Shown in pieces: positions 3,229 to 37,901 of a stretch of 64,000 nucleotides of DNA. The stretch spans positions 372,001 to 436,000 of the forward strand of contig VCJN01003259.1 of assembly GCA_006384855.1 (NCBI GenBank), read 5' to 3'. This DNA is from Tetraselmis striata. Taxonomy: Eukaryota; Chlorophyta; Chlorodendrophyceae; Chlorodendrales; Chlorodendraceae. The first letter of the stretch is position 1. Each line of letters opens with the position of its first letter. The notes below the pieces were generated by a model. It saw only the letters and a program-made list of their open reading frames with translations, searched no databases and was not told the DNA's origin. The translations under genes were made by a program, and so were the position numbers.

Positions 3229-3239
3229 AAGGCTTAAGT

Positions 3240-3538
3240 CGCGAACATAGCGAGCTTAGCGCTTATTCATCCGTTCTGTAGGTTGCCTGAGCAAATGCCG
3301 TAGGGTGTCATTGTCTGAAACAAAGGAATCGACGGCAACCTTCAAGGTAACACATCCAATGCTTAATAGACCCACAGATGGCTAATGCCTCTAGGTCATA
3401 AGCAGAGTAAGTATTCCCACGCTCAGCTGTATTCAGCTTCCGCGCCCAGAATGCCACTGGTTGAGAGCCTCCTCCCTAGTCCTGCAATACTACTGCAGCT
3501 AGCCCTACGTTGGACGCATCTGTCGCTGCGGTAGAACG
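3240..3538 (-). pseudogene. Gypsy RNase H remnant
   Basis: Minus-strand translation across this interval gives a recognisable RNase H block: TDASNVGLAAVVLQD, then GGGSQPVAFWARKLN, then AERGNTYSAYDLEALAI. These match the TDAS start, the FASRKL-like strand and the E-L-A helix of gypsy RNase H. Stop codons and frame changes interrupt it, so it cannot be made as one piece with its neighbours. Confidence 0.7.
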
Positions 3539-4003
3539 TCACATCAATGCCCACTTCCACAGTATGGTCAGACAAGGTGCGGAAATCAACGGCAGACGAA
3601 GAGTCTCGAAAGCTTCCTGACAGTAAGGACTCCAGTCTACAACGGCTGGTTTTGTTTTACGTAACAAATCTGTCAAAGGAGTGGTTAGATCACTGAAATG
3701 GTGAATAAACCTAGAGTAAAAATTGCAAAATTGTACAAAACTTCGCACTTCGCTCTGAGTTTTTGGCACATGCCAACTTTTACCACCGATACAGTATATC
3801 CCCATAGTTAATACTCCATAGATGTCATACCAAAGAAACATTTCTTTAGTTGCAAACATAGGTTATGTTCAGATAATTTCGCCACTACCATACGAATATA
3901 TGTTCAAAGTGGTCAACATAATTCTCTGAATATATACAAATATCATCAAGATATACAACAACAAATTTACGCAAAAGGGACATAAGATAGCATTCATCAT
4001 ACG
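3539..4003 (-). pseudogene. Gypsy reverse transcriptase, YLDD palm and thumb, broken
   Basis: Around 3940-3960 the minus strand reads VVYLDDICIYS, the catalytic YxDD box of reverse transcriptase followed by the usual hydrophobic strand. After a frame change, the open frame at 3539-3859 continues with the thumb/connection region (SEVRSFVQFCNFYSRFI, then TTPLTDLLRK and W..YCQEAFE), which is typical of Ty3 elements. It is out of frame with the RT N-terminal half at 4004-4789. Confidence 0.75.
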
Positions 4004-4789
4004 TTAGAAAATTGCAGGGGCATTGCATAACCCAAATGGCATAACAGTCCATTTTAATAATCCATCAGATGTATCCTCCTCAGCTATAGCAACCTGCCAA
4101 TAACCGGAGGCTAAATCTAAATGGGTATAGCATCGAGCTTTTCTCAACTCATCAAGAGTTTCATCAATACGCGGTAAGGGATACGCATCCTTCCGAGTAA
4201 CATCATTGAGACCACGAAAGTCTACACATAACCGGAGAGATCCATCCGCCTTCCTAACAAAAAGAATAGGCGAGCCAAACTCAGATTGACTAGGACGTAC
4301 AAGTCCGGCTTCAATAGCTGATTTTAATTGGCGATCTAACTCGGCACGCTCAGCCGGGGACAACCGATTGAGACGTTGTTTCTTCATAGTACCAGTAAGA
4401 TCAATCTTATGGTCCCATGGTCGATGCTGCGGAGCACTATCAACCGGTCGCAACACATCCGGAAATTCATCACAAAGAATTTTACGAACAGCCTCCTCAT
4501 GCTCAGGTAGCATTGCATCATCCAAATGCAGATTAGGGTCATCCTTAATCACACTTATTTGGACAGAATAGAACTCAGCCACACGGGGCTTTGCTTTCCC
4601 TCCCCTCGCCGTTTTCCGCATTAATGTCATCAATTTAATTGCAGAAACCGAACTACATGCGGGTCGGCGTTCTATTGTTTCAAACTGGATTTCTGTACCA
4701 TCAATTAGGGTTAAGATACGATTCTCCCCATATTGTACAGATACTTGCGCTTCATCAAGCCAAGTTAATCCTAATACAACATCAGCCAC
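4004..4789 (-). CDS. Gypsy protease end plus reverse transcriptase N-terminal half (fragment)
   Basis: The frame begins with ADVVLGLTWLDEA, the conserved C-terminal flap-to-RT linker of retropepsins (normally D-V-I-L-G-M-x-W-L). It then runs into RT fingers and palm: SPILFVRKADGSLRLCVDFR, NDVTRKDAYPLPRIDETLDE, YTHLDLASGYWQVAI (the first catalytic Asp lies in LDLASGY) and VMPFGLCNAPAIF. Between the Asp motif and VMPFGL the usual K-T-A-F block is shortened (DTSDGLLKWTVMPFGL), which suggests a small deletion. The frame stops right after NAPAIF and the YLDD box continues in another frame. The upstream protease half overlaps this ORF in a different frame. Confidence 0.85.
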   Translation of the reverse strand: MADVVLGLTWLDEAQVSVQYGENRILTLIDGTEIQFETIERRPACSSVSAIKLMTLMRKTARGGKAKPRVAEFYSVQISVIKDDPNLHLDDAMLPEHEEAVRKILCDEFPDVLRPVDSAPQHRPWDHKIDLTGTMKKQRLNRLSPAERAELDRQLKSAIEAGLVRPSQSEFGSPILFVRKADGSLRLCVDFRGLNDVTRKDAYPLPRIDETLDELRKARCYTHLDLASGYWQVAIAEEDTSDGLLKWTVMPFGLCNAPAIF

Positions 4790-5295
4790 ATTGAGTTCTC
4801 GAAGAACATAAATACTCGGTTCTCAAAAGAGTGTCCTGCTATATCAAATGTAATGGTAACGATCTGTGTACAACTCACACGTTGACCATTAGCAAGACGA
4901 ACCGGAATTTTCTTCTGAAGTTTCTCAATCTGAATATTATTTTTACGGACAAAGTCCTCAGAAACAAAATTCAGTGATGCTGCATTATCTACCAATGCAT
5001 CTACATGAGCACAGGTATTTAAGCTGATTTCAACCTTTAATAGTGGCCTGGGATCGTCCCATTTACTTAATGAAGCCACAGTAGCTGGTTGTGATACATT
5101 ATCAACATTATCAGCCGACACATTAACGGTTTCTGAGTCAAAAATATTTTGGTTGACATTTTCTGACTCCACGTTAAAATCCTGAGTGTCCGCAGACACC
5201 TCCCCATCAACATTAGGTGAGCAGGATTCATCCATAATATCATCAGGTATACTACATTCATTGTCCACCAGCCATATACGAATGGGCCACGGCAC
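4771..5295 (-). CDS. Gypsy aspartic protease region (fragment)
   Basis: An acidic N-terminal stretch precedes a retropepsin-like core: VDALVDNAASLNFVSEDFV, then RLANGQRV and a hydrophobic strand. The position equivalent to the catalytic D-S/T-G triad reads D-N-A. The Asp is kept, but the usual S/T and Gly are not. The frame runs out in ENSMWLMLY while the protease C-terminal strand continues in the overlapping frame (ADVVLGLTWL). A frame change near 4805-4812 therefore separates them. Whether D-N-A is a family variant or decay cannot be told from one copy. Confidence 0.7.
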   Translation of the reverse strand: MPWPIRIWLVDNECSIPDDIMDESCSPNVDGEVSADTQDFNVESENVNQNIFDSETVNVSADNVDNVSQPATVASLSKWDDPRPLLKVEISLNTCAHVDALVDNAASLNFVSEDFVRKNNIQIEKLQKKIPVRLANGQRVSCTQIVTITFDIAGHSFENRVFMFFENSMWLMLY

Positions 5296-10560: not shown

Positions 10561-12383
10561 CCTCTTTCCGCGCAGGTCCTACGTTCCATTGTATGTATAT
10601 ACATACGTACATGTATTGCTCCGAAACCAGCCCAAACTTTATGAGTGCACAAGTGTAAATGGGGGGGGGGGGGGGGGGGGGTGGGGGGGGGGGGGATGTG
10701 GCGGCGGGGCATCCACTCACACATACCCCAGCGATGCATGACAAATATTACATGCCGTGGCGGGTCGGCGGGCCGACCCGGCGGGGGGGGGGGGGGGGGG
10801 GGGGGGGGGGCGTCTATTCAACTACACGTGCGACAGTGTCGTTTCGTGGAGCAGTATATGTGCCCGGCCTCATTTATACCGCCCCCTACCTGCGCTGCAT
10901 GGTCTACCCCTAAGAATTACTTAGCACAAACCGTCATTACTTAATAGGAACCTAGCACAGCCAGGCTTATATGCCCGCTTTCCCGATCAACTTCTACGCA
11001 CTTTCCGTCCCTCAACCGCCGGACATGGGGGTTAAGCCGCCAGCCTCGGCAGTTGCTTAGCCAGACTTGGCATCCCGTACCGTGTCCATGGCTTCGCAGC
11101 TCTGCCGCTGGCACACGCCGAGTCCGGCGCTTGCTGCCGCGGGGTTGCGCACGCATGCACGCACGGTAATACGCCGCCGACGCCGCCACGCTTACTTCCA
11201 CCACCTTCGCCAGCCGCAGCTTCGCACGCCTTTCCGCCGACATACGAAACGCACGAATCCCCCCCCGTCCCCGCGTCATGTATATTATATTCGAGGCGAC
11301 TATGCGGGGCGCAGCACACGCCGCGGCGTGGGTCGGCGGAGCGACAGGCGGCGGGAGCCCTAATGGCCGGGCAGTATCCACACCCACACAGGCACCGGCG
11401 GGCAGTCCCCTGCCCGACCACGGCCACGAAGAGGGCGGAGTTCCGCCATGTCAGGGACGCGTTCCACGACGCGACTCGCGCCGCCGTGTGTGAGGCTTCC
11501 GAGAAGGCACGCGCGGCTGGTAGGGTGCGCAGGGTGAGGCGGCGGACGGCCCAGGAGCTGAAGGAGAGCGAGACATGCCGTCAGTGAGGTCGGGCGCAAT
11601 GTCATTGGGTGGGGCACACGGACGTGTAACACTTGCACTTTGCGCGTACTGTTGGGTTACATCCAGGCTGCGTCACACTATGCAACCGGAAAGGCTGCGT
11701 TGCTACTGCAAACAATGCGACGCCTCACTCTGTAGCAACCGCTGCCGCGCCTATCCCACAGCCGCTGCCCCCCCCCCCCCCCCCCCCCCCGCGCGGGATC
11801 CCCGCCATCAGCAGCTTGCACTTGCACTTTGCGCGTACTGCTGGGTTACATCCAGGCGGCGTCACACCGGAAAGGCTGCGTTGCCACTGCAAACGATGCT
11901 ACGCCTCACTCGGTAGCAACCGCTGCCCCGCCCATCCCACTCGGGATGCTGAGAGCAGCTAAAGGGCACCGGGGGCGGGGCAAGAGGGAGCAGGGCCAAT
12001 GATTGTGGAAGAGCGGGGACCCGCTTGCATGCCATCGTATTATATCTTGCACAATATCTGTTGCTGCACTCATATCTCACATCACTAGCTTAGCTATAGT
12101 GATTCCCCCCCCCCCCCCCCCCCCCCCCCCCGCACCGCGTACGCACAAGCCTGGGTATACGCATCAACTGCCCGCCGGGATGAGAAACTGGTATTGGTAG
12201 TGTGTCTGTGGGGTGGAGGGGGGGGGGGGCAAAAGAGCTGCCAATTGCTGCCAAGCTGGTGCGTTACATTGGGGCAGGCGCTGGGCAGACAATTGGGGCT
12301 CGCTTCAGAGCATTGTCTAGTGCCTATGCGGCTGCGCCGCCTCCGCCGCATGCAGACTCTGCGGGCTCACCAGCACCGCCACC

Positions 12384-13334
12384 TCAGTCATGCGGCCCTG
12401 CATCCCGCAGCCCGCCGCCGTCAGCCAGATCAGAGGTATCCAGAAGCCAGTGCTGGGGTTGTTGCGGCATGACCGCATAGTTTTCAGCGGCTGCCGTCCA
12501 CAGCTTGTAATGCATCCCTTTCCGCCGATTCCGCTGTATGCGCTGCCCCGGCCGCCGCGCCTTGGCGCCGCGCTGCCCCGGCCGCCGCTGTCTTGGCGCC
12601 GCGCTGCCCCGGCCGCCGCGCCTTGGCGCCGCGCTGCCCCGGCCGCCGCGCCTTGGCGCCGCGCTGCCCCGGCCGCCGCTGTCTTGGCGCCGCGCTGCCC
12701 CGGCCGCCGCGCCTTGGCGCCGCGCTGCCCCGGCCGCCGCGCCTTGGCGCCGCGCTGCCCCGGCCGCCGCGCCTTGGCGCCGCGCTGCCCCGGCCGCCGC
12801 TGTCTTGGCGCCGCGCTGCCCCGGCCGCCGCTGTCTTGGCGCCGCGCTGCCCCGGCCGCCGCTGTCTTGGCGCCGCGCTGCCCCGGCCGCCGCTGTCTTG
12901 GCGCCGCGCTGCCCCGGCCGCCGCTGTCTTGGCGCCGCGCTGCCCCGGCCGCCGCTGTCTTGGCGCCGCGCTGCCCCGGCCGCCGCTGTCTTGGCGCCGC
13001 GCTGCCCCGGCCGCCGCGCCTTGGCGCCGCGCTGCCCCGGCCGCCGCGCCTTGGCGCCGCGCTGCCCCGGCCGCCGCGCCTTGGCGCCGCGCCGCGCTGC
13101 CCCGGCCGCCGCGCCTTGGCGCCGCGCTGCCCCGGCCGCCGCGCCTTGGCGCCGCGCTGCCCCGGCCGCCGCGCCTTGGCGCCGCGCGGGGTATCGAGTC
13201 CTCCCCTCCCTAGTGAGCGCGTCCACCTGCGCCTTGCGCTCGGGGCCGTCCTCCTCCGTCACCACATTCTGCAACCCCCACCGCGTGACGAACCACGCAG
13301 CTCCTTGCATGCGCTTGTACATTTGCCCAAGCAC
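12384..13334 (-). CDS. CACTA-borne coding fragment interrupted by a minisatellite
   Basis: The frame opens with a non-repetitive, protein-like stretch (VLGQMYKRMQGAAWFVTRWG, then NVVTEEDGPERKAQVDALTR). It passes through the whole 30/31-bp minisatellite and ends in KGMHYKLWTAAAENYAV and QQPQHWLLDTSDLADGG. Both ends look like real protein, and the minisatellite appears to have grown inside the coding sequence. The 31-bp units shift the frame every time they occur, so the repeat peptide is read in all three frames in turn. Upstream, the coding continues in another frame at about 13340-13490, so this copy is broken. Confidence 0.35.
   Translation of the reverse strand: MLGQMYKRMQGAAWFVTRWGLQNVVTEEDGPERKAQVDALTREGRTRYPARRQGAAAGAARRQGAAAGAARRQGAAAGAARRGAKARRPGQRGAKARRPGQRGAKARRPGQRGAKTAAAGAARRQDSGGRGSAAPRQRRPGQRGAKTAAAGAARRQDSGGRGSAAPRQRRPGQRGAKTAAAGAARRQGAAAGAARRQGAAAGAARRQGAAAGAARRQDSGGRGSAAPRRGGRGSAAPRRGGRGSAAPRQRRPGQRGAKARRPGQRIQRNRRKGMHYKLWTAAAENYAVMPQQPQHWLLDTSDLADGGGLRDAGPHD
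12540..13183. repeat. 21-unit GC-rich minisatellite with 30-bp and 31-bp unit types
   Basis: All units share GCGCTGCCCCGGCCGCCGC. Twelve units continue GCCTTGGCGCC (30 bp) and nine continue TGTCTTGGCGCC (31 bp). In order they read A B A A B A A A, then seven B in a row, then six A, with a 5-bp CGCGC insertion before unit 19. The total is 644 bp. Because 31 is not a multiple of three, all plus frames and at least one minus frame stay open through it, so long frames here are not evidence of a gene. Related units occur in opposite orientation at 53468-53545. Confidence 0.95.
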
Positions 13335-13890
13335 CGCCTAGGGACGCGAAGCTCCTTCTCGGTCATGATCGCCTTCACCCGGGCCTCCTCGAGCAGCGGA
13401 CCGGCGTTAAGAATGGAAAACGTTTCCATGTGGTGCAAGCAGTCCTCCATGACCCACCCGGACTGCACCGTCACCTTGCCTGACCCTGCAGTCATGGAGG
13501 GGAATGCCGTCACGCCCACGCCCACGCCCACGCCCACGCCCGGGGGGGGGGGGGGGGGGTTACCTTTCGATTCTTGGACACTGCAAACGAAGGGCGCAAC
13601 CCGCGTTCAAAGTTGCTGGGTATCGGGACTAAAGCCTGGCGCCGGTCTTCCTGCTTCATAGCTCGGAATCCAATGTGGCCCTGCACGGTGACAAATTTCC
13701 TCCATAAGTCCCTTCCCAAGCCAAAAAAAAACAGGTGGAACGGCGCGAGGGGGAAGAGGTTGATCATGCTGACATAGCCCAGGACCACATGCACATGGCA
13801 CACGCCATGGCAGCCAGTGTTCTGCTTGGCCTCCGCCAGCCGGGTTGTGTTGAACGCACGCCGGGCAAGGTGCGTGATTCACTGGACAAG
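13335..13890 (-). pseudogene. CACTA-borne protein fragments, minus strand
   Basis: Minus-strand frames give protein-like stretches: GVCHVHVVLGYVSMINLFPL and FFFGLGRDLWRKFVTVQGHI (about 13690-13800). After the hexanucleotide tract at 13506-13541 come SGWVMEDCLHHMETFSILNA and GPLLEEARVKAIMTEKELRV (about 13340-13490). They run in the same direction as the zinc-finger exon upstream and are probably parts of one element protein. The H..L..GL.R.LW pattern resembles transposase helices, but I cannot name a family. Confidence 0.35.
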
Positions 13891-16130: not shown

Positions 16131-16599
16131 TTTTTACATCAGGGCTTTAACAAATGCGCACTACAAACAGAACTATCGGCAACTAGAATATCCCCTCACA
16201 GTCCTCGATTTGAGTACACGTGTGGTGGATTTGTACCTTTCAAAGTTGAGTCTGATTTTGCCAAAATAATCACGCAGGCTGTTTTACACGGATAAGAGCC
16301 GAAAGTGGCAGGAAGGTTAAGTGAAAGCGTAGAGGGAAAATAGAGTCGGGGGGGCGCTGCTTGTAACGCATCGAAACTAAAACATGGCTGGCTCAGCTGT
16401 CATGGCTGCTTTTATGTCTACTCGTGTTGTACCCAAAAAGGGCGCAACGACAGGTGCCTAGTAACCCGTACCACTGCAGCACGGTAGCCGGAAAAGCGGT
16501 CAGGAATAAAGGAGGAAACCCCATGAACAAGTTTAGAACATTTCAAAGTTGAGTCTGGTTTTGCCAGTGATGAGCGAACGGAGAAAGCGGTAGATTGAC

Positions 16600-18060
16600 G
16601 GAGAAGGGGTAGCGCTAGGTCATGAAGGGGGCACCGGTAAGGCCACCGTTGCGGAGCCTTGTTGGACTTGGAAGTGGCGGAGGGGCGCGATGTGACAAAG
16701 AAGAACCACGCGCCAGGCGAAGGAATGACGTTGGGGTCGATGTAGTCCAGAACGACGTTTGAGTTAGTGGCCCAGCCGCCTTGGTAGCAAATGTGGGACA
16801 GTTGGAGTTCCGATGGCGTTAGCGGGATATGCTGTCCCCTTGCGAAGGATGTGTGCGCTCCGTGAAGTGCCGGCGCGGAGGGGCGGGGGGCACCGACAAG
16901 ACGAACGGCCGTAGAGAGCCAGTCCGACATGGCGGCGGCAGTCCAAGACTTGGAATGCTCGCTCGGGGTGACCGCGCCCAGAAGTTGTTTCGGCCAAGGC
17001 AACAGGGGCCAGGGGCAGACTGTGAGTGGTCGATGAAGTGGAGCAGTAGACGTGCACTGCGGGGGTGCTCGGACACCGGAAGGAGCAGTACACGCAGGTC
17101 GTCGGGGCCGCGTCGACCGGCGCGGCTGCGACAGTCTCAATAGGAGAGAGACTAAAAACAAAGGTGGTATGCAGCGGTGGTGCAAAGGCGAGATGCTACA
17201 GTGTTTTGACGATACAAAGATATTGGTTATCACAACGCTTACCACATTAAATTGGCGGCATTATACAGTTCATATAACCGTAGTCACAGGTACACATTGT
17301 GCGAGTACTCGCAGGTACTAACTCGTAGTATATCGTACTCGTAAAATTGTCACACGGCCCATTCTCGCGGCCCTTCTTGCAGGGTAATGTTGTAGTCGTC
17401 GACATGCACGTTCCACACTCGGCAAGACACGCTAGTAAGTCCCATGGCAAAGAACATGAAGTTGACAACCGAAGCCATGAGGGCTCGGAAGTCGTACTGG
17501 TACTGGGGAAAGGGAGCAGACACAAATCAACTCGCCACGCTCGACGAAGTTGAAAGCGACATAAGCAGGCAGAGGGACTCGCAAAGGGGTAGCCTCTAGA
17601 CGGTGTTGCCTTAGCATTAGGCGACGACGACCCGCGGTAAGGTGCTGGTTGTCCTTGGCGATCGGGTCGAGGTTGTGTATCTCAAAGAACGTGTAGATTG
17701 CTGACATGCACGGCTGCAACGACTTAGCCCCAATGTGTGCCCGCTCACCAATCCAAACAACGTCACGGATGATAGTAGCAATGGTCGCCTCCTGCGGGCT
17801 GATGTTCTCGGAGTCGTGGCAGAACTCCGCGAACTGAGACAGTCGGCCGGCATAGGACTTGAGCGTCTAAGCGGTGAGGGAGCTGGAGAGTAGGTCGAGG
17901 GTCCGCTGTCCTAGCTCGTCCGACCCGAACGCCTCATGTAAACGACACTGGAGTGAAGCATAACGGGAGGCGGATTGTTAAGCCGCCATGTGTAGGTGTG
18001 CAGATGGTTGAGCCGCACTCGGCTGTAGTTGTAAGAAGCGCCGCACCGAGGAAGGTCTAA
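16600..18060 (-). pseudogene. Tyrosine recombinase pseudogene (copy 1)
   Basis: Homologous to the intact recombinase at 33292-34917 but split over several frames and by a solo LTR. The C-terminal region is still readable in pieces (YQGGWATNSNVVLDYIDPN, carrying the catalytic Tyr, and GAWFFFVTS). The region of the Arg box lies on the other side of the LTR insertion. Confidence 0.7.
17127..17354 (-). repeat. Solo LTR of the gypsy family, internally shortened
   Basis: It starts TGCGACAGTCTC and ends AATTGTCACA like the gypsy LTRs, but is 228 bp because a central part is missing or diverged. It is flanked by CGGC on both sides (17123-17126 and 17355-17358), a 4-bp target duplication. It interrupts the recombinase gene of copy 1. 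This confirms the LTR termini used for the 984-15241 element. Confidence 0.8.
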
Positions 18061-18462
18061 GTGAAGCCTTTACAGCGGGAGGGTCCGGTCCGGACAAATA
18101 GCGCTCATCCCGTCCTTGAGCTGCCAGGGTGCGCTTTGCGGCGGTCAACGAAAGGTGGCCTCGCAATGCGCCAGCAGCTCCGACGAAAGGCGCCCTACAC
18201 CGTCACTCGTGCTCACCTTCGCAGCCACGCCCGCGACCGCCGCCACGCCCACGTCCACGCCCGCGCCTTGCAACCGTTGCGGCCACCCGAGCAGAAGCGG
18301 TAGCTTTTGCGCTGCTGGCAACCGTCGCTCTTAGTCCTTCGTTAGGTGTCCGAAAATCGCAGAGCCCAAATGTTCGGCGGCAGGCCGAAAATGTTGGGCT
18401 CGCAGTATGTCCGGCACACCTTGGTCACCGTGCACACGTCTACACATGTTAAGCCACGGAGG

Positions 18463-19068
18463 CTAGACGTAAGCAACCGCTTTGTTGATGCCCTCGGCGT
18501 GATTCCGAGTGCGCGCGAGGTAGGGGCTGAAGTCTTGATTGGCAGCATGGACATAGGGTAGCAGCTCGTCGAGAGCTACGAAGAGTGCAGCCATGTGGGC
18601 TCCGAAACACGACATCCAAAGATACTCCTCCTGGGCCGGTAGACGCCGGTCAGCATTCTGCTTGACGTACGCGTTCGCCAGGTCGGTGCTCATGGGAAAG
18701 AGTCCAGGCACTCGGTTGACCGGTCGAACGGCCTCGTAACCAGACTCTGCTCGATGCAGTAGCTCTGGCAATGCGAGGTAGTCGTCCTCGTCACTCACGG
18801 ATTTTGCTCCCACACGGCCGCTTTGGGCTAGCTCTAGCAAGTCAGGGCGCTCTGCGGCTCCCCCGCTGCCTGTCGGTGTCCCGTACGTGACGCGCTGCCC
18901 GGAACCAGAGCCGTGTACTCCGTCTCCATCCACAACACGGCGGTCACGAGCCGCAATTGAGCTAACGATGTTGCAAGCTCGCGCAGCCATGTACACTGGG
19001 CCTTCATGTCCGCTTGTTGTAGCGATTCGAGCGTCGGCTCAACGACGGGTTCTTCTTAATTTGACATG
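18463..19068 (-). pseudogene. Gag-like ORF of tyrosine-recombinase element (copy 1)
   Basis: The frame at 18463-18996 aligns with the gag-like ORFs of copies 2 and 3 (LLELAQSGRVGAKSVSDEDD, GYEAVRPVNRVPGLFPMSTD, EEYLWMSCFGAHMAALFVAL). It stops after EGINKAVAYV, while copy 2 reads on through the same point. The normal start region lies at about 19060 in another frame. Confidence 0.65.
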
Positions 19069-19727
19069 ATGACGCACGGACGTAAGGATGAAAATTTCAC
19101 ACATGGGTGGTAAGCCGGGGTGTGGTCTTGAACAACTTGGGGTGACCTTGCTCGCAACAGGTTGCGAGACACATAAGCTGGAGGATGTCAGGCTCAACTG
19201 TTATGGCTGCTTTTATGTCTACTCATGCTGTACCCAAAAAGGGCGCAACGACAGGTGCCTAGTAACCCGTACCACTGAGCAATACGGTAGCTGGAAAAGA
19301 GTTAGGGATAGGAGGAAACCCAATGAACAAGTTTAGACCACTTCAAAGTTGAGTCTGATTTTGCCAAATTAATCACGCAGGCTGTTTTACGAAACTGGCA
19401 GGAAGGTTTAGCGAAATCGAAGAGGGAAAACGGAGTGGGGAGGGGGGGGGGGGCGTTGTGTGTAACAACGTGAAAACGGAAGATGGCATGCTCAGCTACT
19501 GTTAATGCAACTTTTATGTCTACTCGTGTTGTACCTAAAAGGGGGCGCAGCAGCGGATGAACTAGCAACCCATACCACATAGCAGCAACGGTAGCCGGAA
19601 AAGCGGTCAGGAAAGGAGGAAACCCCAAAAAGTAGTACGTTTAAATCATTTCAAAGCTGAGTTTGGTTTTGTCACTGATGAGCGAACGGAGAGAGCGGTA
19701 GATTGACGAAGACGGGGTAGGGCCATG

Positions 19728-21422
19728 TCACGAAGGGGGCACCGGGAAGGCCACCGCTGCGGAATTTTGCTGCACTTGAAAGTGGCGAAGGGGCGCGATG
19801 TGACCGAAGAAGAACCACGCGCCATGTGATGAGGGGATTACGTTAGGGTCGATGTAGTCTAGAATGACGTCGGAGATCGTGGCCCATCCGCCTTGGTGGT
19901 GAATGTGGGACAGAGGAACTCCGATGGCGTTAGCAGCAAAGATTGCACCCTTGCAAAGGCTGTGTGAGCTCCAAGAAGTGCTGGCGGGGGAGGGGCAGCA
20001 CCGACGAGACGAACGGCCGTAGAGAGCCAATCCGACATTGTAGTGGCAGTCCAAGATTTGGACCGCTCGCCCGGGGCCACCGCCTAGAAGTTTGTCTTGC
20101 CCAAGGCAACAGAAACCAGGGGGGCAGACTGTACGTTGTCGATGAAGTGGTGTGGGAGACGCGCGATGCGGGGGTCGTGCTCCGACACTATACGGAGGAT
20201 GAGCATACGTAGGTCGTCGGGGCCGCGCCGTCCGGCACGCCCTTCATGATCTCTCGGCACACTTGCATAGTGATGTTGTAGGCGTCGACATACACGTCCC
20301 ACACTTCGCAGGACACGCCAATGAGTCCCGTGGCAAAGAACATGAAGTTTATAACCGAAGCCACGACGAGGCTTGGAAGTCGTACCGGTGCTCGAGGTAG
20401 GGGATGAGAGCGGACATAATCAAGTAACCAACTCGGCCCGCTCGACGAAGCGGAAATCGCATGCAACGGGACTCGGAAAGAGGCAACTTCCATGAGGCGT
20501 TGCCTGAGCCGCAGGCCACGAAGCGCGGCGGTGAGGTGCGGGTTGTCCAAAGCGGTGGGGTCGATATTGTGCAGCTCGACGAAGGTGTTGATTGCTGACA
20601 TGGCTGCAACGACTTAGCCCCAATGTGTCCCCGTTCATCAATCCAAGCGACATATCGGACGACAGTGGGAGTGGTCGCCTATAGCGGGATGATGTTCTCG
20701 GAGTCGTTGCAAATCTCTGCGAACTGAGACAACTTGCCGGCGTAGCTCCAAAGTGTCCGGGCGGTGAGGGGGCTGGAGAGTCGGTCGATGGGTCGAGGGC
20801 CCGATATCCCATCTCGTATGAACCGAACGCTTCTAGCAGACGGGACCGGAGTAAAATAGCCCATGGGGCGACAACTTCGGGCTCGTCAAGCACGTTAGTA
20901 CGACGCTTGGCCGACGGAGTATCAAGGGGCCGGTTCATTTCAGCAAAGTACTCGGCCGCGGCGGTTAGGTTGCCGGCGGTTGGCCGGTAATTGCTGGACG
21001 GGTTAGTCAGGGAACCATTACGGGTTTGTGGAACCAGATTTAGGTAGGAGGGCCGCCCCGCGCGCCGGTTGCGCTCGTTGCCTCTGTCCCGCGGGTAACG
21101 TACACGCGCGAAAGATGGTCGTTGCTAACCACGTGTATCACGTAGTGTAACAACCGACGGACGCAATGATGATATGGTGCGGATGCTGGCGGATTGTTCA
21201 GCCGCCATGTGTAGGTTTGCGGATGGTTGAGCCGCACTTGGTTGTAGCTGGAAGAAGCGCCGCGCCGAAGAAGGTCTGAATGAAGTCTGTTGAGTGGGGG
21301 TCCGGTCCGGACACAGGGCGCTCATCCCGTCCTTGAGCTGCCAGGGTTTGTTGTGCAGCGGTCGCCAAAACGTGGCCTCGCAATGCGCTAGCAGCTCCGA
21401 CGAAAGGCGCCCACGCCGTCAC
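19728..21422 (-). pseudogene. Tyrosine recombinase pseudogene (copy 2)
   Basis: Pieces match the intact recombinase at 33292-34917: SHIHHQGGWATISDVILDYI with the catalytic Tyr, HGAWFFFGHIAPLRHFQVQQ at the C terminus, MFFATGLIGVSCEVWDVYVD around box I, and the N-terminal MRLNHPQTYTWRLNNP region. Box I reads A-T-G-L where the intact copy has A-R-G-L, so the first catalytic Arg is lost. Many stops and frame changes. Confidence 0.75.
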
Positions 21423-21484
21423 TCGTGCTCACTTTCGCGGCCACGCACGCCACAAACGCCGCCAGGTCCATGTCCTCGTCTGCG

Positions 21485-22222
21485 TCATGCGAGCGTCGCC
21501 GCCACCCGAGCAGTAGCGGTAGCTTTCGCGTTTTTGGCGATCGTCGCATCGAAGACACGACGCTCGCAGTCCTCCATCGGGTCCCCGAAAATCGCAGTGC
21601 CTAAATGCTCGGGTGCACGTTGAAAATGTTGAGCTCGCAGTACGTCCGGCACACCTTGGTCACCGTGCACACGCATGATCTCTTTAAGCCTCCGCATGAA
21701 GACTAGACGAAAACGAAACTCTTTGTCGATGCCCTCGGCGTGATTCCGGGTGCGCGCGAGGTATGGGGTGATTAGCAGCAGAGACGTAGGGTAGCAGCTC
21801 GTCGAGGGCCACCCGGCCACGAGAAGAGCAACTATGTGGGCCCCAAAGCACGTCATCCAAATAAGGTACTCCTCCGGGGTTGGCCGGTCAACCTGCTTGA
21901 GGAAGTCGTTCGTCATGTCGGTACTCAAAGGGAAAAGCCCGTGGACTCGTCTGACCGGTCGAACGGCCTCATGACAAGACTCTGCTCGATGCAGTAGCTC
22001 TCGCACCGCGAGATAGTCGTCCTCGTCACTCACGGATTTTGCTCCGACGCGGCCGCTCTGGGCTAACTCTAGCAAGTTGGGGCGCACTGCGGCTCCCCCG
22101 CCGCTACATGTCGGCTGTCCCGCAACGCACTGCCGGCGGGAACCAGCGCCATGTGCTCCATCTCCATCAGCAACACGTCCACGAGCCGTCAATTGGGCCA
22201 ACGCCGATGTGAGCTCGCGCAC
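21485..22222 (-). CDS. Gag-like ORF of tyrosine-recombinase element (copy 2)
   Basis: A 245-codon frame aligns with the split frames of copies 1 and 3 and is the only copy open across the middle (NHAEGIDKEFRFRLVFMRRL, then KEIMRVHGDQGVPDVLRAQH). It continues into an Ala/Lys-rich tail (ERRVFDATIAKNAKATATAR). In copy 3 the corresponding tail ends in an Arg-Gly repeat, which suggests nucleic-acid binding. Its place before the recombinase is that of ORF1 (gag) in DIRS-like elements; the gag identity is inferred. The true start may lie slightly upstream of the first Met because the N-terminus differs between copies. Confidence 0.6.
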   Translation of the reverse strand: MRELTSALAQLTARGRVADGDGAHGAGSRRQCVAGQPTCSGGGAAVRPNLLELAQSGRVGAKSVSDEDDYLAVRELLHRAESCHEAVRPVRRVHGLFPLSTDMTNDFLKQVDRPTPEEYLIWMTCFGAHIVALLVAGWPSTSCYPTSLLLITPYLARTRNHAEGIDKEFRFRLVFMRRLKEIMRVHGDQGVPDVLRAQHFQRAPEHLGTAIFGDPMEDCERRVFDATIAKNAKATATARVAATLA

Positions 22223-22668
22223 CCATGTAGACTAGGCAATTGGGCATGCACGTCTACTTGTAGCGATCGGAGCGTCGGCTCGGCGACGAGTTATTCTTCT
22301 CCATTTGGAATGGTGACGCACGGACGTACGGATGAGAATTTCACACACGGATGGTGAGCAACATGTGACCTTCCTCGCAACATGTTACGAGACAGTTAAT
22401 TGCTGCGTGTAACACAGCGAAACTAGAAGATGGCAGGCTCAGCTTTTACTGTTGCTTTTATGTCTACTCGTGCCGCACCAAAAGGGGGCGCAACGGCGGG
22501 TGAACTAGTAACCCGTACCACCTAGCAGCAACGGTATCCGGAAAAGCAGTTAGGATAGGAAACCCCATAAATTAGTTTAGATCGGCTTGCTCACGAGTAT
22601 CGTCGGCACGGCATTTTTTAGTTCCAGCCCGTCGCGAGCATGATACAATCCTTCTCGTATTTTTTACA

Positions 22669-32893: not shown

Positions 32894-33026
32894 ACATATA
32901 CTATGATATTTCAAAGTTGAGTCTGGTTTTGCGAAAAGGTCGCACAGGCTGTTTTACACGGTCAAGAGCCGAAATTGGCTGGATGGTTTAGCGAAAGCGT
33001 GGAGGGAAAACGGAGTCAGGGGGGGC

Positions 33027-33212
33027 GCTGCGTGGAACGCAACGAAAACTGGAAGATGGCAGGCTCGGCTGTTCTGGCTGCTTTTATGTCTACTCGTGCT
33101 GCACCCAAAAAGGGCGCAACAACAGATGCCTAGTTCCCGTACCACTGAGCAGCACTTGTAGCTAAAAAGCGGTTAGGTCAAGGAGGGAAACCCCATAAAC
33201 TAGTTTAGATCA
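33027..33212 (-). repeat. A2 direct repeat of copy 3
   Basis: Nearly identical to 35970-36160 in the same orientation, running from CGCTGCGTGGAACGCA to AACTAGTTTAGATCAT. Related copies occur at about 16345-16540, 19175-19340, 19455-19645 and 22405-22583. Confidence 0.88.
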
Positions 33213-33291
33213 TTTCAAAGTTGAGTCTAGTTTTGCCAGTCTTGAGCGAACGGAGAGAGCGGTGGATTGACGGAGAAGAGGTAGCGCCAAG

Positions 33292-34917
33292 TCATGAAGG
33301 AGGCACTGGGAAGGCCACCGCTGCGGAGTCCTGTTGGACTTGGAAGTGGCGGAGGGGGGCGATGTGTCCAAAGAAGAACCACGCGCCATGTGAAGGAAGA
33401 ACGTTGGGGTCGATGTAGTCCAGAACGACGTCAGAGTTAGTGGCCCAACCGCCTTGGTAGCGAATGTGGGACAATGGCACTCCGATGGCGTTTGCTGCAG
33501 AGGCTGCGCCCTTGCGAAGACTGTGTGAAGTCCAGGAAGTGCCAGCAGGGGGGGCAGCGTTGACTAGACTGATGGCTGCAGACAGCCAGTCTGACATTGT
33601 AGCCGCAGTCCAAGGTTTTGACTGCTCGGCCGCAGTGACAGCCCAGAAGTTTGATGTAGCCAAGCCAACAGTAACCAAGGGGACATATTGGACGTTGTCG
33701 ATGAAGTGGTGCAAGAGGCGTGCCACTCGAGGGTGCTCGGACACCGGAAGGAGAAGTACGCGTAGGTCGTCGGGTCCCCGTCGGCTAACGCGACCCTTCT
33801 CGCGGTACACTTGCAAGGTGATGTTGTAGGTGTCGACATGCACATCTCGCACTCGACAGGAGACGCCAGTAAGGCCCCTGGCGAAGAACATGAAGTTGAC
33901 AATCGAGGCCAAGAGGGCTCGGAAGTCGGGGTGGTACTCTGGGTAAGGAGCAGACACAATTAGCTCGGCCTTTGTGACGAAGCGGTAGGCTACATCCGCA
34001 GGCAGAGGGACACGCAAAGGGGCAGCGTCTAGCCGGCGCTGACGCAGCATCAGCCCACGCCTTGCTGAAGTTAGGTGTAGACTGTCCTTGGCGATTGGGA
34101 CGAGGTTGTGCAGTTCGAAGAACGTGTTGATTGCGGACAGGTAGGGTTGCAGCGACTTAGCTGCGATGTGCCCTCGCTCTCCGATCCAGGCAACATACCG
34201 AACGACAGTAGCAGTAGTCGCCTCCAGCGGGCTGATGTTTTCGGAGTCGTGGCAGAACTCCGCGGGCTGAGACAGCCGGCCGGCATAGCTCTTGAGTGTC
34301 TGAGCGCTGAGGGAGCTGGAGAGTAGGTCGAGCGTGCGCTGCCCCAGCTCGTCCGAGCCGAACGCCTCCTGCAGCCGGGATCGCAGTGCCGCAGCCCACG
34401 GGGCGACATCTGCGGGCTCGTCAATTACGTACGTGCGTCGTTTTACCGACAGAGTTCCACCAGTACGACTACTGTTCGCAAAGTACTCGGCAGCAGCGGT
34501 TAGGTTTCCAGCGGTTGGCCGGTAGCTGCTGGACGGGTTTGCAGTAGCTTCAGTACGGGTTTGCGGGGCTAGGTTCAGGTAAGAGGGCCGCCCCGCGCGC
34601 CCTTCGCGCTCGTAGCGCCTGTCTCGTGCATAACGTACACGCGCGAAACTTGGTCGTTGCGAACCAGTTGTGACACGTAGTGTAACAACCATCGGACGCA
34701 GAGATGGGGTGGTAAGGAAGGCGGTTGGTTGAGCCGCCATGTGCAGGTGTGCGGATGGTTGAGCCGCACTCGGCTGTAGCTGTAAGAAGCGCCGCACCGA
34801 GGAAGGTCTAAATGAAGTCTGTAAGGTGGGGGGGTCAGGTCCTGACACAGGGCGCTCATCTCGCCGTTGCGCTGCAAGGGTGCGTCTTGCGGCGGTCACC
34901 GAAAGGTGGCCTCGCAA
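33292..34917 (-). CDS. Tyrosine recombinase (integrase), apparently intact
   Basis: The 541-residue protein has a basic, low-complexity N-terminal third, a SAM-like core-binding helical region (about 200-300, LSAQTLKSYAGRL.. and SLQPYLSAINTFFELH) and a C-terminal catalytic domain. The tyrosine-recombinase residues are all present: R347 in MFFARGLTGVSC, H465-x-x-R468 in SHSLRKG, W491 in YQGGWATN and the nucleophile Y501 in VLDYIDPN. Such enzymes cut and join DNA through a phosphotyrosine, usually acting on a circular intermediate. Two related pseudogenes lie at 16600-18060 and 19728-21422. The start is the first ATG, 36 bases after the end of the gag-like reading frame on the same strand, so the two may be expressed from one transcript. 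Confidence 0.88.
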   Translation of the reverse strand: MRGHLSVTAARRTLAAQRRDERPVSGPDPPTLQTSFRPSSVRRFLQLQPSAAQPSAHLHMAAQPTAFLTTPSLRPMVVTLRVTTGSQRPSFARVRYARDRRYEREGRAGRPSYLNLAPQTRTEATANPSSSYRPTAGNLTAAAEYFANSSRTGGTLSVKRRTYVIDEPADVAPWAAALRSRLQEAFGSDELGQRTLDLLSSSLSAQTLKSYAGRLSQPAEFCHDSENISPLEATTATVVRYVAWIGERGHIAAKSLQPYLSAINTFFELHNLVPIAKDSLHLTSARRGLMLRQRRLDAAPLRVPLPADVAYRFVTKAELIVSAPYPEYHPDFRALLASIVNFMFFARGLTGVSCRVRDVHVDTYNITLQVYREKGRVSRRGPDDLRVLLLPVSEHPRVARLLHHFIDNVQYVPLVTVGLATSNFWAVTAAEQSKPWTAATMSDWLSAAISLVNAAPPAGTSWTSHSLRKGAASAANAIGVPLSHIRYQGGWATNSDVVLDYIDPNVLPSHGAWFFFGHIAPLRHFQVQQDSAAVAFPVPPS

Positions 34918-34953
34918 AGCTCCAGCAGCTCCGGCGAAAGGCGCCCTACACCG

Positions 34954-35202
34954 TCACTCGTGCTCACCTTCGCGGCCACGTCCACGCCCCCCGCCACGTC
35001 CTCGCCCACGCCCGCGACCTGCAGCTGCAGCTGCTACTCGGGCAGTAGCGGTTGCCTTTGCGCTGCTGGCAACGGTCGCCTGGAAGACACGACGCTCGTA
35101 GTCCTTCATGAGGTCCCCAAAAATCGCGGAACCCAGATGCTCCGAAGCAGGCTGAAAATGCTGGGCTCGCAGCACGTCCAGAACACCTTGGTCACCGTGC
35201 AC
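34954..35202 (-). CDS. Gag-like ORF, C-terminal part (copy 3)
   Basis: Continues the homology of the copy-2 gag-like ORF (HGDQGVLDVLRAQHFQ, GDLMKDYERRVFQATVASSA) and ends in an Arg-Gly run (GRGRGRGGGRGRGRE). That tail suggests RNA or DNA binding. It is separated from 35255-35833 by a net 4-base difference near 35245-35255 that brings a stop in frame. Confidence 0.6.
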   Translation of the reverse strand: MHGDQGVLDVLRAQHFQPASEHLGSAIFGDLMKDYERRVFQATVASSAKATATARVAAAAAGRGRGRGRGGGRGRGREGEHE

Positions 35203-35254
35203 ACGCTTGATCTCATTTAGCCTCCGCAGGAAAGCCAGACGAAAACGAAACGCC

Positions 35255-35833
35255 TTACTTGTCGATGGCCTCGGCGTGATTCCGAGCTCTCGCGAGGTAG
35301 GGGGTGAAGTCCTGGTTAGCGGCAGGGACGTAAGGTAGCAGCTCGTCGAGAGCTACGAAAAGTGCGGCCATGTGGGCCCCGAAACACGACATCCACAAAT
35401 ACTCCTCCTGGGCCGGCAGACGCCGGTCGTCCTGCTTGAGGTACTCGTTCGTTAGGTCGGTGCTCAGGGGGAAGAGTCCAGGCACTCGGCTGACCGGTCG
35501 AACGGCCTCGTAACCAGACTCTGCTCTCTGCAGTAGCTCTGGCACCGCGAGGTAGTCGTCCTCGGCACTGGCGGATTTTGCTCCGACACGGCCGCTCTGG
35601 GCTAGCTCTAGCAAGTCGGGGCGCTCTGCGGCTCCCCCGCTGCATGTCGGCTGTCCCGCGAAGCGCTGCCCGGAGCCGGAGCCATGTGCCCCTTCCCCAT
35701 CAACAACGCGATCACGAGCCGTCAGTTGTGCCACAGCTGTAGCCAACTCTCGCATTAATGAAGACTGGGCCCTCATATCTGCGTTCAGCGACTCCAACGT
35801 CGGCTCGGCGACGGGTTCTTCTCCACCTGGCAT
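35255..35833 (-). CDS. Gag-like ORF, N-terminal part (copy 3)
   Basis: I start it at MPGGEEPVAEP, the Met shared by position with the other copies. The protein is helical and acidic at first (ESLNADMRAQSSLMRELATA). It then holds the block conserved in all copies: LLELAQSGRVGAKSASAEDD, GYEAVRPVSRVPGLFPLSTD, EEYLWMSCFGAHMAALFVAL. It stops at HAEAIDK, where copy 2 reads on. The stop lies in CAAGTAAGG, which also looks like a splice donor, so splicing into 34954-35202 is conceivable but unproven. There is no zinc knuckle, and gag identity is by position only. Upstream, CACACTCGGGTGG is repeated three times (35863-35913); the older copies have one. Confidence 0.6.
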   Translation of the reverse strand: MPGGEEPVAEPTLESLNADMRAQSSLMRELATAVAQLTARDRVVDGEGAHGSGSGQRFAGQPTCSGGAAERPDLLELAQSGRVGAKSASAEDDYLAVPELLQRAESGYEAVRPVSRVPGLFPLSTDLTNEYLKQDDRRLPAQEEYLWMSCFGAHMAALFVALDELLPYVPAANQDFTPYLARARNHAEAIDK

Positions 35834-35969
35834 GGTAACGCACGGACGTACGGACGAGAATATCACACTCGGGTGGTGAGCACACTCGGGTGGAATAGCA
35901 CACTCGGGTGGTGTGGTCTTGAACAACCTGGGGTGACCTTGCTCGCAACGGGTTACGAGACAGTTTTTA

Positions 35970-36160
35970 CATCGCTGCGTGGAACGCAGCGAAAACTGGA
36001 AGATGGCAGGCTCATCTGTTCTGGCTGCTTTTATGTCTACTCGTGCTGCACCCAAAAAGGGCGCAACAACAGATGCCTAGTTCCCGTACCACTGAGCAGC
36101 ACTTGTAGCTAAAAAGCGGTTAGGTCAAGGAGGGAAACCCCATAAACTAGTTTAGATCAT
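35970..36160 (-). repeat. A1 direct repeat of copy 3
   Basis: Partner of 33027-33212 with only a few differences (for example GGCTCATCTG here and GGCTCGGCTG there). Confidence 0.88.
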
Positions 36161-36340: not shown

Positions 36341-36384
36341 AGCAGTCTCGACTCTAGCAGTCGAGCAGAGTGTCAGCTTACTCT

Positions 36385-37071
36385 ATGCCGACTCGGACCC
36401 GAGCCTCAGCCTCCCGAGACGCTACACCTTCCCCACCCCGCGACAGCATGATGCCCCCTCGCCATGTCCCGGAAGACGCCCTAGTCGACGACGCCCCGGG
36501 CGGCGCCACAGCGGCATCCATCGCGGAATTGGAAAAACGCCTGACGGCCCAAGCGGAAGCCCTGGAGAAGCGGCTGGCCGAGCAGTTCGAGGCGGCTACG
36601 GCCGCCCTACTCGCTCGACTGGCCCCTCCCGTGCATTCGCCTCCTCCCAAAGGCACCCAGCCAGCCATTCCCGCAGGCGCGCCTGCGCCCGAGGGTGGTG
36701 AGCAAGGAGCGCAAGAGCCCCTTCCTGCTGAGCTGGACGCACTCGACACCGGGCTCGAGTACGTCGACTTCGCCTACTTCGGCCAAGTCCCCCCTTCCGG
36801 TCTGGACCCACCCCCACGCGACGGCGACGAGCCTCGCTTGTGGATTCTGACCGACGACACCGAATTGGAGAAACGCCTGACGGCCCAAGCGGAAGCCCTG
36901 GAGAAGCGGCTGGCCGAGCAGTTCGAGGCGGCTACGGCCGCCCTACTCGCTCGACTGGCCCCTCCCGTGCAACCGCCTCCTCCCAAAGGCACCCAGCCAG
37001 CCATTCCCGCGGGCGCGCCTGCGCCCGAGGGTGGTGAGCAAGGAGCGCAAGAGCCCCTTGCTTCCTGCTGA
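36385..37071 (+). CDS. Gag-like coiled-coil protein, internally duplicated
   Basis: Starts at the ATG in MPTRTRASASRD just inside the left LTR. The protein contains two copies of a unit of about 112 residues: a coiled coil (ELEKRLTAQAEALEKRLAEQ, FEAATAALLARLAPPV), a Pro-rich linker, then LEYVDFAYFGQVPPSGL and RLWILTDDT. The second copy has a 4-base insertion (CTTG doubled near 37060) that ends this frame at LASC. The remainder continues in the frame at 37066-37330 with AARGLAEQQGLTAYDKYMYL and RCYAKACGQSM. The single-unit ancestor was probably an intact gag; I do not recognise a capsid fold. Confidence 0.6.
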   Translation: MPTRTRASASRDATPSPPRDSMMPPRHVPEDALVDDAPGGATAASIAELEKRLTAQAEALEKRLAEQFEAATAALLARLAPPVHSPPPKGTQPAIPAGAPAPEGGEQGAQEPLPAELDALDTGLEYVDFAYFGQVPPSGLDPPPRDGDEPRLWILTDDTELEKRLTAQAEALEKRLAEQFEAATAALLARLAPPVQPPPPKGTQPAIPAGAPAPEGGEQGAQEPLASC

Positions 37072-37335
37072 GCTGGACGCACTCGACACCGAGCTCGAGT
37101 ACGTCGACTTCGCCTACTTCGGTCAAGTCCCCCCTTCCGGTCTGGAGCCACCCCCGCCACGCGACGGCGACGAGCCTCGCTTGTGGATTCTGACCGACGA
37201 CACCGCCGCCCGCGGCCTCGCGGAGCAGCAGGGTCTGACAGCGTACGACAAGTACATGTATCTTCGCTGTTATGCTAAGGCCTGCGGCCAATCCATGGCG
37301 GTACGGCCGTCACTGCAGTACAGTGTACAGTACCT
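37066..37335 (+). pseudogene. Frameshifted continuation of the gag-like protein
   Basis: Picks up the second unit after the 4-base insertion (LPAELDALDTELEYVDFAYF, then GLEPPPPRDGDEPRLWILTD) and adds a unique end, TAARGLAEQQGLTAYDKYMY. The open frame runs on to 37738 into the right LTR, but beyond about 37335 it is Pro/Arg-rich and probably not coding. Confidence 0.5.
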
Positions 37336-37724
37336 GGGCCGCCCGTCCCGCGCACGGCGCCCGCGCCCGGGCTCTGGAGCGCCCTGGACGGTGTCGATGG
37401 CGGCCGAGCCCCACCTTCTTGCCGCCCTCTCTCCGGCGCCGGCCTGCCGACCAAGTTTTGGAGCGTCTCCCCGCTGGAGCCTTCCGCCGCTTGGTCCTTT
37501 TCAGCCACTCCCACTGACTGGCTGCGGGACGCCTGCCTGGCGGCGGGCGCCCAGCCGCCCCCAGTGTCACGTGGGCATCGCACAGGTTGCGCAAAGGCGC
37601 GGCCTCGGCAGCGTGCTGCTATGCTGCGGTTCTGCTGCTAGCTCGTCCCCGTCCGGCCGCTACACTTCGCTACCTGTGCAAGCCTTTGGCTTTCTTCTCT
37701 GGCAAATCGTGCCTCCTTGGGTAA

Positions 37725-37901
37725 ATGGTCAGATGTAGTCATATAGAGGTTTACAGTACTTAGCAATGTTGTACTGCGCACGATCCCCGCGGTCGGCGCA
37801 CGGACTGGGGCCTGCCGGCCCGCACCGGCACCACGACCTGAGGGATCCGCCCTCGGGCACCGGCACTCTCTGCTTTGCGCTCGCCTCAACCGGCTCGCGC
37901 A
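37725..37901 (+). repeat. Right LTR of gag-only element
   Basis: Direct repeat of 36165-36340. Confidence 0.8.

Follow-up and report, generated by a model that had tools for sequence, protein, structure and literature searches.

Anatomy, copy number and putative replication route of a tyrosine recombinase element with split direct repeats and no reverse transcriptase in the copies read from Tetraselmis striata

The analysis of a 64,000-nucleotide (nt) stretch of the genome of Tetraselmis striata (C2631:372001-436000; the window hereafter) identified a 3.25-kb element on the minus strand, in which a gag-like open reading frame (ORF) and a tyrosine recombinase (YR) are combined with split direct repeats. 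No reverse transcriptase (RT) was found in the copies read, and searches of the whole assembly (224,097,584 bases in 2903 contigs) supported a real high-copy family, not one deletion copy. The element is probably a non-autonomous PAT-like retroelement, which would supply its own Gag-like protein and YR, carries no RT, ribonuclease H (RNase H) or methyltransferase, and would receive RT in trans.

The order A1-gag-like-YR-B1-A2-B2, proposed in an earlier note made from the sequence of the window, was confirmed on the minus strand by measuring the repeats. The A1/A2 pair is 188 nt long with 98.4% identity and lies 2947 nt apart, the B1/B2 pair is 25 nt long with 96% identity, and 93 bases separate A2 from B2 in the window copy. 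The span given in that note (32911..36160) was 2-3 bases off at its limits, as the comparison of copies and empty sites placed the ends at 32908 and 36158, with the terminal letters GAAAT and GATCTAAAC, respectively. The features are as follows.

32908..36158, minus: whole element (window copy), A1-gag-like-YR-B1-A2-B2; ends from copy comparison and empty sites
35973..36158, minus: A1, 5' terminal repeat with TATA-like box; 98.4% identity to A2
36028..36037, minus: TATA-like GACATAAAAG in A1, from sequence; putative promoter
34954..35833, minus: gag-like ORF from the first ATG to TGA, with a frame break near 35255 in the window copy
34951..34956, minus: TGA-CGG at the gag/YR boundary; TGACGG in 30/32 copies
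33292..34953, minus: YR frame of 553 codons, first Met at 34740; SAM-like domain and catalytic residues
33212..33236, minus: B1, internal 25-nt repeat adjoining A2, from repeat comparison
33081-33090, minus: second TATA-like box, in A2, from sequence; putative promoter
33026..33211, minus: A2, internal copy of A, from repeat comparison
32954..32958, minus: TGTAA shortly before B2, green-algal poly(A)-type signal; putative function
32908..32932, minus: B2, 3' terminal repeat; final base T or C among copies
19343..22583, minus: second, decayed copy with the same plan, from sequence comparison
16240..19340, minus: third, decayed copy with the same plan, from sequence comparison

Copies of the family and the search for reverse transcriptase

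The 24-mer spanning the B1|A2 junction occurred 1137 times in the genome with up to two mismatches, compared to 0 for the reversed control. The gag search scored the best 150 of 3770 candidates, at 95-100% identity, and the YR search the best 80 of 7711 candidates, at 93-100% identity; eight of these 80 YR matches contained an internal stop. Thirty YR loci were retrieved with their flanks (L038-L067, L038 being the window copy). Both ends were present in 25 of them (L039, L043, L046, L048 and L049 were dropped), 24 aligned end to end in one piece with the window element, and both frames were long in 15 (gag at least 315 codons, YR at least 542). As the closest pair was 99.91% identical, with a median of 93.9% over the 435 pairs, some of the movement is recent. 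On C1388, tandem A-gag-YR-B units were found 2917/2918 bases apart, joined by B|A. The earlier note had argued against a single deletion from three RT-less copies, and the family now bears this out with its 1137 junctions. The two further copies that it had seen in the window do keep the plan, but both are decayed, at approximately 75-80% identity; they were inserted head to tail (16240-22583), with 2 bases between them.

The absence of RT was examined by tblastn, using the RT-RNase H of two DIRS/PAT-type elements of T. striata and the gypsy RT piece of the window as queries. None of these queries had a match in the 64 element loci (L005-L068). Five of the loci show a copy for the second time, L068 is the continuation of L037, and L008-L037 extend only 1.5 kb beyond the gag query. 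The 24 copies aligning end to end with the window element leave no room for RT. The precomputed Pfam assignments also showed RT in 0 of the 120 listed gag proteins and in 1 of the 120 listed YR proteins. This one protein, P0076, was rejected as an RT-carrying member, being a gypsy-looking RT fragment fused to a truncated gag. L023, in which the element ends early, gave no DIRS/PAT or gypsy RT match, and its flank carries a frame resembling a long interspersed nuclear element on the other strand, outside the element. The RT motif DLKDAYF, searched as an exact pattern, had no match. The pattern PFGL[SA]xAP matched 60 places compared to 3 in the control, and the two of these places taken as L069 and L070 showed no match to DIRS/PAT-type RT. 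PF00078 in the genome (best 150 of 3001 candidates) fell mostly in long gypsy-looking frames, and the viral contigs matched none of six peptide patterns. The statement 'no RT' thus applies to the copies read and not to the genome.

Indeed, RT-bearing elements of a related design were reached through PF05869 (Dam, methyltransferase), which had 122 matches among the best 150 of 777 candidates. C2142:138-5994 is a complete PAT-type element, consisting of A1 (201 nt), a zinc-knuckle gag, a 696-codon RT-RNase H-methyltransferase, YR, B1 (68 nt), A2 (99.5%) and B2 (100%); its A repeat contains TATAAA, and a TGTAA lies 83 bases ahead of B2. At least 78 RT matches of this PAT family were listed, among them 29 full-length ones at 95% identity or more, 23 of which had no stops. 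Comparison of the PAT element with the RT-less family found no DNA similarity beyond 16 bases and no significant similarity of the gag, and the 38 proteins listed as relatives of the PAT YR had no member in common with the 227 listed for the YR and gag of the RT-less family. In a comparison by hhalign, the RT-less YR aligned to the profile of the T. striata PAT YR over 283 columns (E 3.5e-6, probability 87.6; low diversity, Neff 1.4), whereas bacterial XerC and a second RT-bearing element gave E 0.12 and 0.3; these controls were not fully fair because single sequences were used. As DNA similarity was lacking and the YRs were alike at the profile level only, the PAT element is a possible helper and not the parent. 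The earlier note had advised a genome-wide search for RT between or beside the two frames, and named relatives of that kind as the finding that would overturn its class. No RT was found in the 64 loci, but an RT-RNase H element with the same split repeats does exist in the genome, having no DNA similarity to the family. L071 (C103:25500-30500) holds a second DIRS/PAT-type element, distinct from the first, whose 1331-codon frame encodes RT and methyltransferase and is overlapped by a YR frame; it has a 121-nt repeat (4464-4584/4868-4988).

The insertion sites were compared among the 25 copies with both ends. The last base of the left flank was T in all 25; position -3 was T in 20 copies, and position -2 was either A or C in 22. 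The right ends were GAAAT in 15 copies and GAAAC in 10 (one of these GCAAC). When the flanks of L064 were joined, they matched straight across the junction in 40 of the 43 reported places, and the three empty sites examined for this copy were identical to the joined flanks across the junction, demonstrating that no target duplication was made. The flanks of four of the 25 copies (L045, L052, L057 and L064, the last reversed) resemble one another around GATATC..GAAATCACC and belong to a dispersed repeat, suggesting that this target is preferred.

Constraint on the gag-like and recombinase frames

The gag-like ORF predicted by the earlier note is broken near 35255 in the window copy, but the 322-codon frame (stop to stop) is open at this place in many other copies. 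A mini-intron at the break was rejected, as other copies are open there. The gag-like protein matched no Pfam family above the cut-off, and no methyltransferase domain was found by the Pfam scan of the element frames; the putative label 'gag-like' comes from its position and an RG-rich tail. The YR retains R347, H465, R468, W491 and Y501 (541-aa numbering from 34917), all as the earlier note had listed them. A SAM-like domain (PF02899, E 1.5e-6) was above the Pfam cut-off and PF00589 (E 0.0035) was below it, and the best matches among solved structures were Cre (E 0.0055), confined to the catalytic stretch 460-503. Among the 120 protein relatives listed for the YR (358 passed), 119 were T. striata gene models and one was a metagenome protein with 91% identity.

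In 19 of the 30 copies (L038-L067), the long gag and YR frames share one frame and meet at a single stop, while one of the two frames is broken or shortened in the remaining 11. The stop context TGACGG was present in 30 of 32 copies. These include the two decayed copies of the window, which do not keep the frame past TGACGG; conservation of the context by itself says little, given the youth of the family. Variable sites fell at codon position 3 in 51 of 78 cases in gag (with 21 indel columns) and in 82 of 115 in the YR core, as compared to 11 of 26 in A1/5' untranslated region. In the linker, the 71 codons from the stop to the first Met of YR, the ratio was 10 of 13 (p 0.0016) without any indel column. 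These variation patterns indicated that both frames are under selection and that coding constraint continues past the gag stop. Parts of a study of leaky termination (PMC2754532) describe UGA with CGG on its 3' side as the Type II readthrough context of tobacco rattle virus. A Gag-YR fusion would accordingly be a candidate product of UGA-CGG readthrough in this family, and splicing, as in many gene models, may be another route to a joined product.

Co-variation of A1 with A2 and the route of movement

Rebuilding of A1 from A2 in every round would require that variants newly arisen upstream of the transcription start be common to both repeats of a copy. The 26 copies with both repeats were investigated (L039, L043, L048 and L049 lack A1). 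In columns 4-140 of A, A1 and A2 differed by 2.38 within a copy and by 6.74 between copies, which was reached in 0 of 5000 permutations, and 77 of the 85 occurrences of the 14 variants common to at least two copies were in both A1 and A2. A1 and A2 were identical in 8 of the 26 copies. The coupling was maintained in the 16 copies outside the young subfamily (0/5000; 8/5000 without L065 and L046). Among 17 close pairs, which we chose ourselves and which overlap, 6 displayed concerted A1/A2 change, including three separate contrasts (L052/L065, L058/L064 and L045/L060, with 8, 4 and 7 concerted sites), all in columns 4-140. In contrast, no coupling was seen in columns 141-190 (0.58 within and 0.57 between copies). 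A1 therefore co-varies with A2 in about the first 140 columns, as if A1 had been rebuilt from A2.

The anatomy of the element is consistent with such rebuilding. The TATA-like box lies at approximately position 126 of 186 in A, and TGTAA lies 27 nt before B2, with one more TGTAA at 189. In Chlamydomonas, according to the part of PMC3439250 concerned with this signal, TGTAA is on average 14 nt upstream of the poly(A) site. A transcript running from below the TATA-like box to beyond the second TGTAA would be missing the whole of B2 and the greater part of A1, and this sequence is held by B1-A2. The earlier note had left movement as DNA and movement with RT in trans side by side; the co-variation, together with the anatomy, speaks for an RNA intermediate and RT supplied in trans over movement as DNA only.

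In the mechanism that we propose, RNA polymerase II would start in the last part of A1 and stop before B2, and the mRNA would yield Gag and, by occasional UGA-CGG readthrough, the Gag-YR fusion. RT from another element would then copy the RNA, with the internal B1-A2 as the template that restores the lost A1 promoter and B2 end and closes a circle, and YR would recombine the B|A site of the circle with a short target, mostly of the form RTMT, and produce no target duplication. More tentatively, and with a little less than even confidence, the family may represent a stable class of YR retroelements without reverse transcription of its own, having a Gag-like protein, YR and a UGA-CGG fusion and taking RT from unrelated PAT or gypsy elements, which it seemingly far outnumbers (1137 B1|A2 junctions versus at least 78 RT matches of one PAT family).

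Several observations weigh against a PAT-like retroelement served in trans. The 10 copies of the young subfamily alone gave no significant coupling (519/5000), with little variation, 11 of the 17 close pairs had no concerted change, and older copies contain many changes in A1 only or A2 only. Only two variants in columns 141-190 are shared between copies, with none of their 5 occurrences in both repeats, so that the coupling boundary is hinted at and not established. Both TATA and TGTAA are short; TGTAA occurs twice in the element compared to 1.5 times in shuffles, and C2142:138-5994 carries further TGTAA elsewhere. The linker constraint was calculated from 13 sites. The gag and DNA of the PAT element share nothing detectable with the family, leaving the acceptance of its RNA by the PAT RT unexplained. 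The whole reconstruction is drawn from genomic DNA, and gene conversion could also homogenise A1 and A2.

The co-variation would also be explained by gene conversion between A1 and A2, or by their exchange through YR, if the family moved by some other route. The two repeats are in direct orientation 2.9 kb apart, and the shared variants in columns 141-190 are too few to distinguish a sharp boundary from none; however, both shared variants past column 140 occur in one repeat only, that at column 148 being in A1 of three copies, and we regard this explanation as very improbable. Little more room than this is left for movement as DNA only, in the manner of Cryptons, which we consider unlikely. 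YR would here excise a circle and reinsert it, the gag-like protein would have a different role, and the split repeats would be a relic. In favour of such movement are the YR with all catalytic residues and third-position bias, the lack of RT in the copies read and of target duplication, and the C1388 array, whose units joined at B|A fit circle recombination at the YR site. It does not provide the step rebuilding one of A1 and A2 from the other that their co-variation requires, nor does it explain why gag is kept under selection and why B1-A2, not needed for DNA excision, is kept in 1137 places. The family could also descend by internal deletion from a missed RT-bearing element that has this gag and YR and is still present in the genome, the parent supplying RT in trans. 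The precise meeting of gag and YR at one stop in 19 of 30 copies, the TGACGG also found in both decayed copies, and the finding of RT only in P0076 among the listed proteins make such a descent highly doubtful, although the scored matches were the best and near-identical ones, behind which rarer RT-bearing relatives could be hidden.

Relation to known elements and other features of the window

The family resembles PAT-type elements (Pat1, Toc3 and Kangaroo; DIRS order) in its split direct repeats A1-B1-A2-B2, the gag-like ORF in first position, the R-H-R-W-Y tyrosine recombinase and the absence of target duplication, and in the PAT element of T. striata, as in the family, A contains a TATA-like box and a TGTAA stands after A2 and ahead of B2. 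PAT elements differ in having RT, RNase H and methyltransferase, none of which was present in the copies read, and the YRs are alike by profile comparison only. Although it would work like PAT, the family was not filed as PAT because RT and methyltransferase were not found. DIRS1-like elements have inverted terminal repeats and an internal complementary region, whereas none of the four inverted pairs listed lies at the two ends of the RT-less element. TOC1 of Chlamydomonas is a split-repeat element that is helped by TOC3; it is not known to carry RT or to have coding capacity for gag and YR.

Ngaro and VIPER/TATE share the split direct repeats and have their internal repeats downstream of YR, as far as the pertinent part of PMC4157794 describes them. 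They encode RT-RNase H, in Ngaro and VIPER without methyltransferase; the loci of the family gave no RT match. Cryptons are likewise YR elements without RT; the relevant section of PMC3212892 gives them neither inverted nor long direct terminal repeats and ties DUF3504 and GCR1_C to them. The Pfam families reported for the YR of the RT-less element include neither domain, and the family differs further in its gag-like frame with third-position bias and its 188-nt direct repeats. The classification part of PMC4157794 separates YR elements of the DNA kind, which have YR alone, from those of the RNA kind, which combine Gag, RT and YR, and the RT-less family falls between the two. No RT-less element with gag, YR and split repeats was found in the literature searched, subscription journals and Repbase being outside the scope.

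The presence of split direct repeats is taken to mark YR elements whose copying passes through RNA and uses an RT of their own. In a high-copy family with the repeats, gag and YR but no RT, copying is separated from integration, and the parts that must act in cis become apparent. Such a family also offers a natural test of the DIRS/PAT replication model, as the A1/A2 coupling should end at the transcription start in the full copy set. The family may represent an intermediate stage that links Crypton-like DNA elements with YR retroelements.

Some assembly contigs look like bacterial contamination, since the genomic PF00589 matches L001-L004 lie among bacterial-looking genes (XerC-like, prophage-like; neighbours judged by eye). 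Within the window, gypsy-like remains occupy 1507-4822, with integrase zinc-binding and core domains and a Tf2-1-like SH3 domain by Pfam, and an RT fragment upstream. A long GC-rich repeat at 12317-13661 contains several open frames on both strands. Adjoining the element, 36358-37738 contains frames with an internal 336/340-bp duplication (98% and 91%) and no Pfam family above the cut-off.

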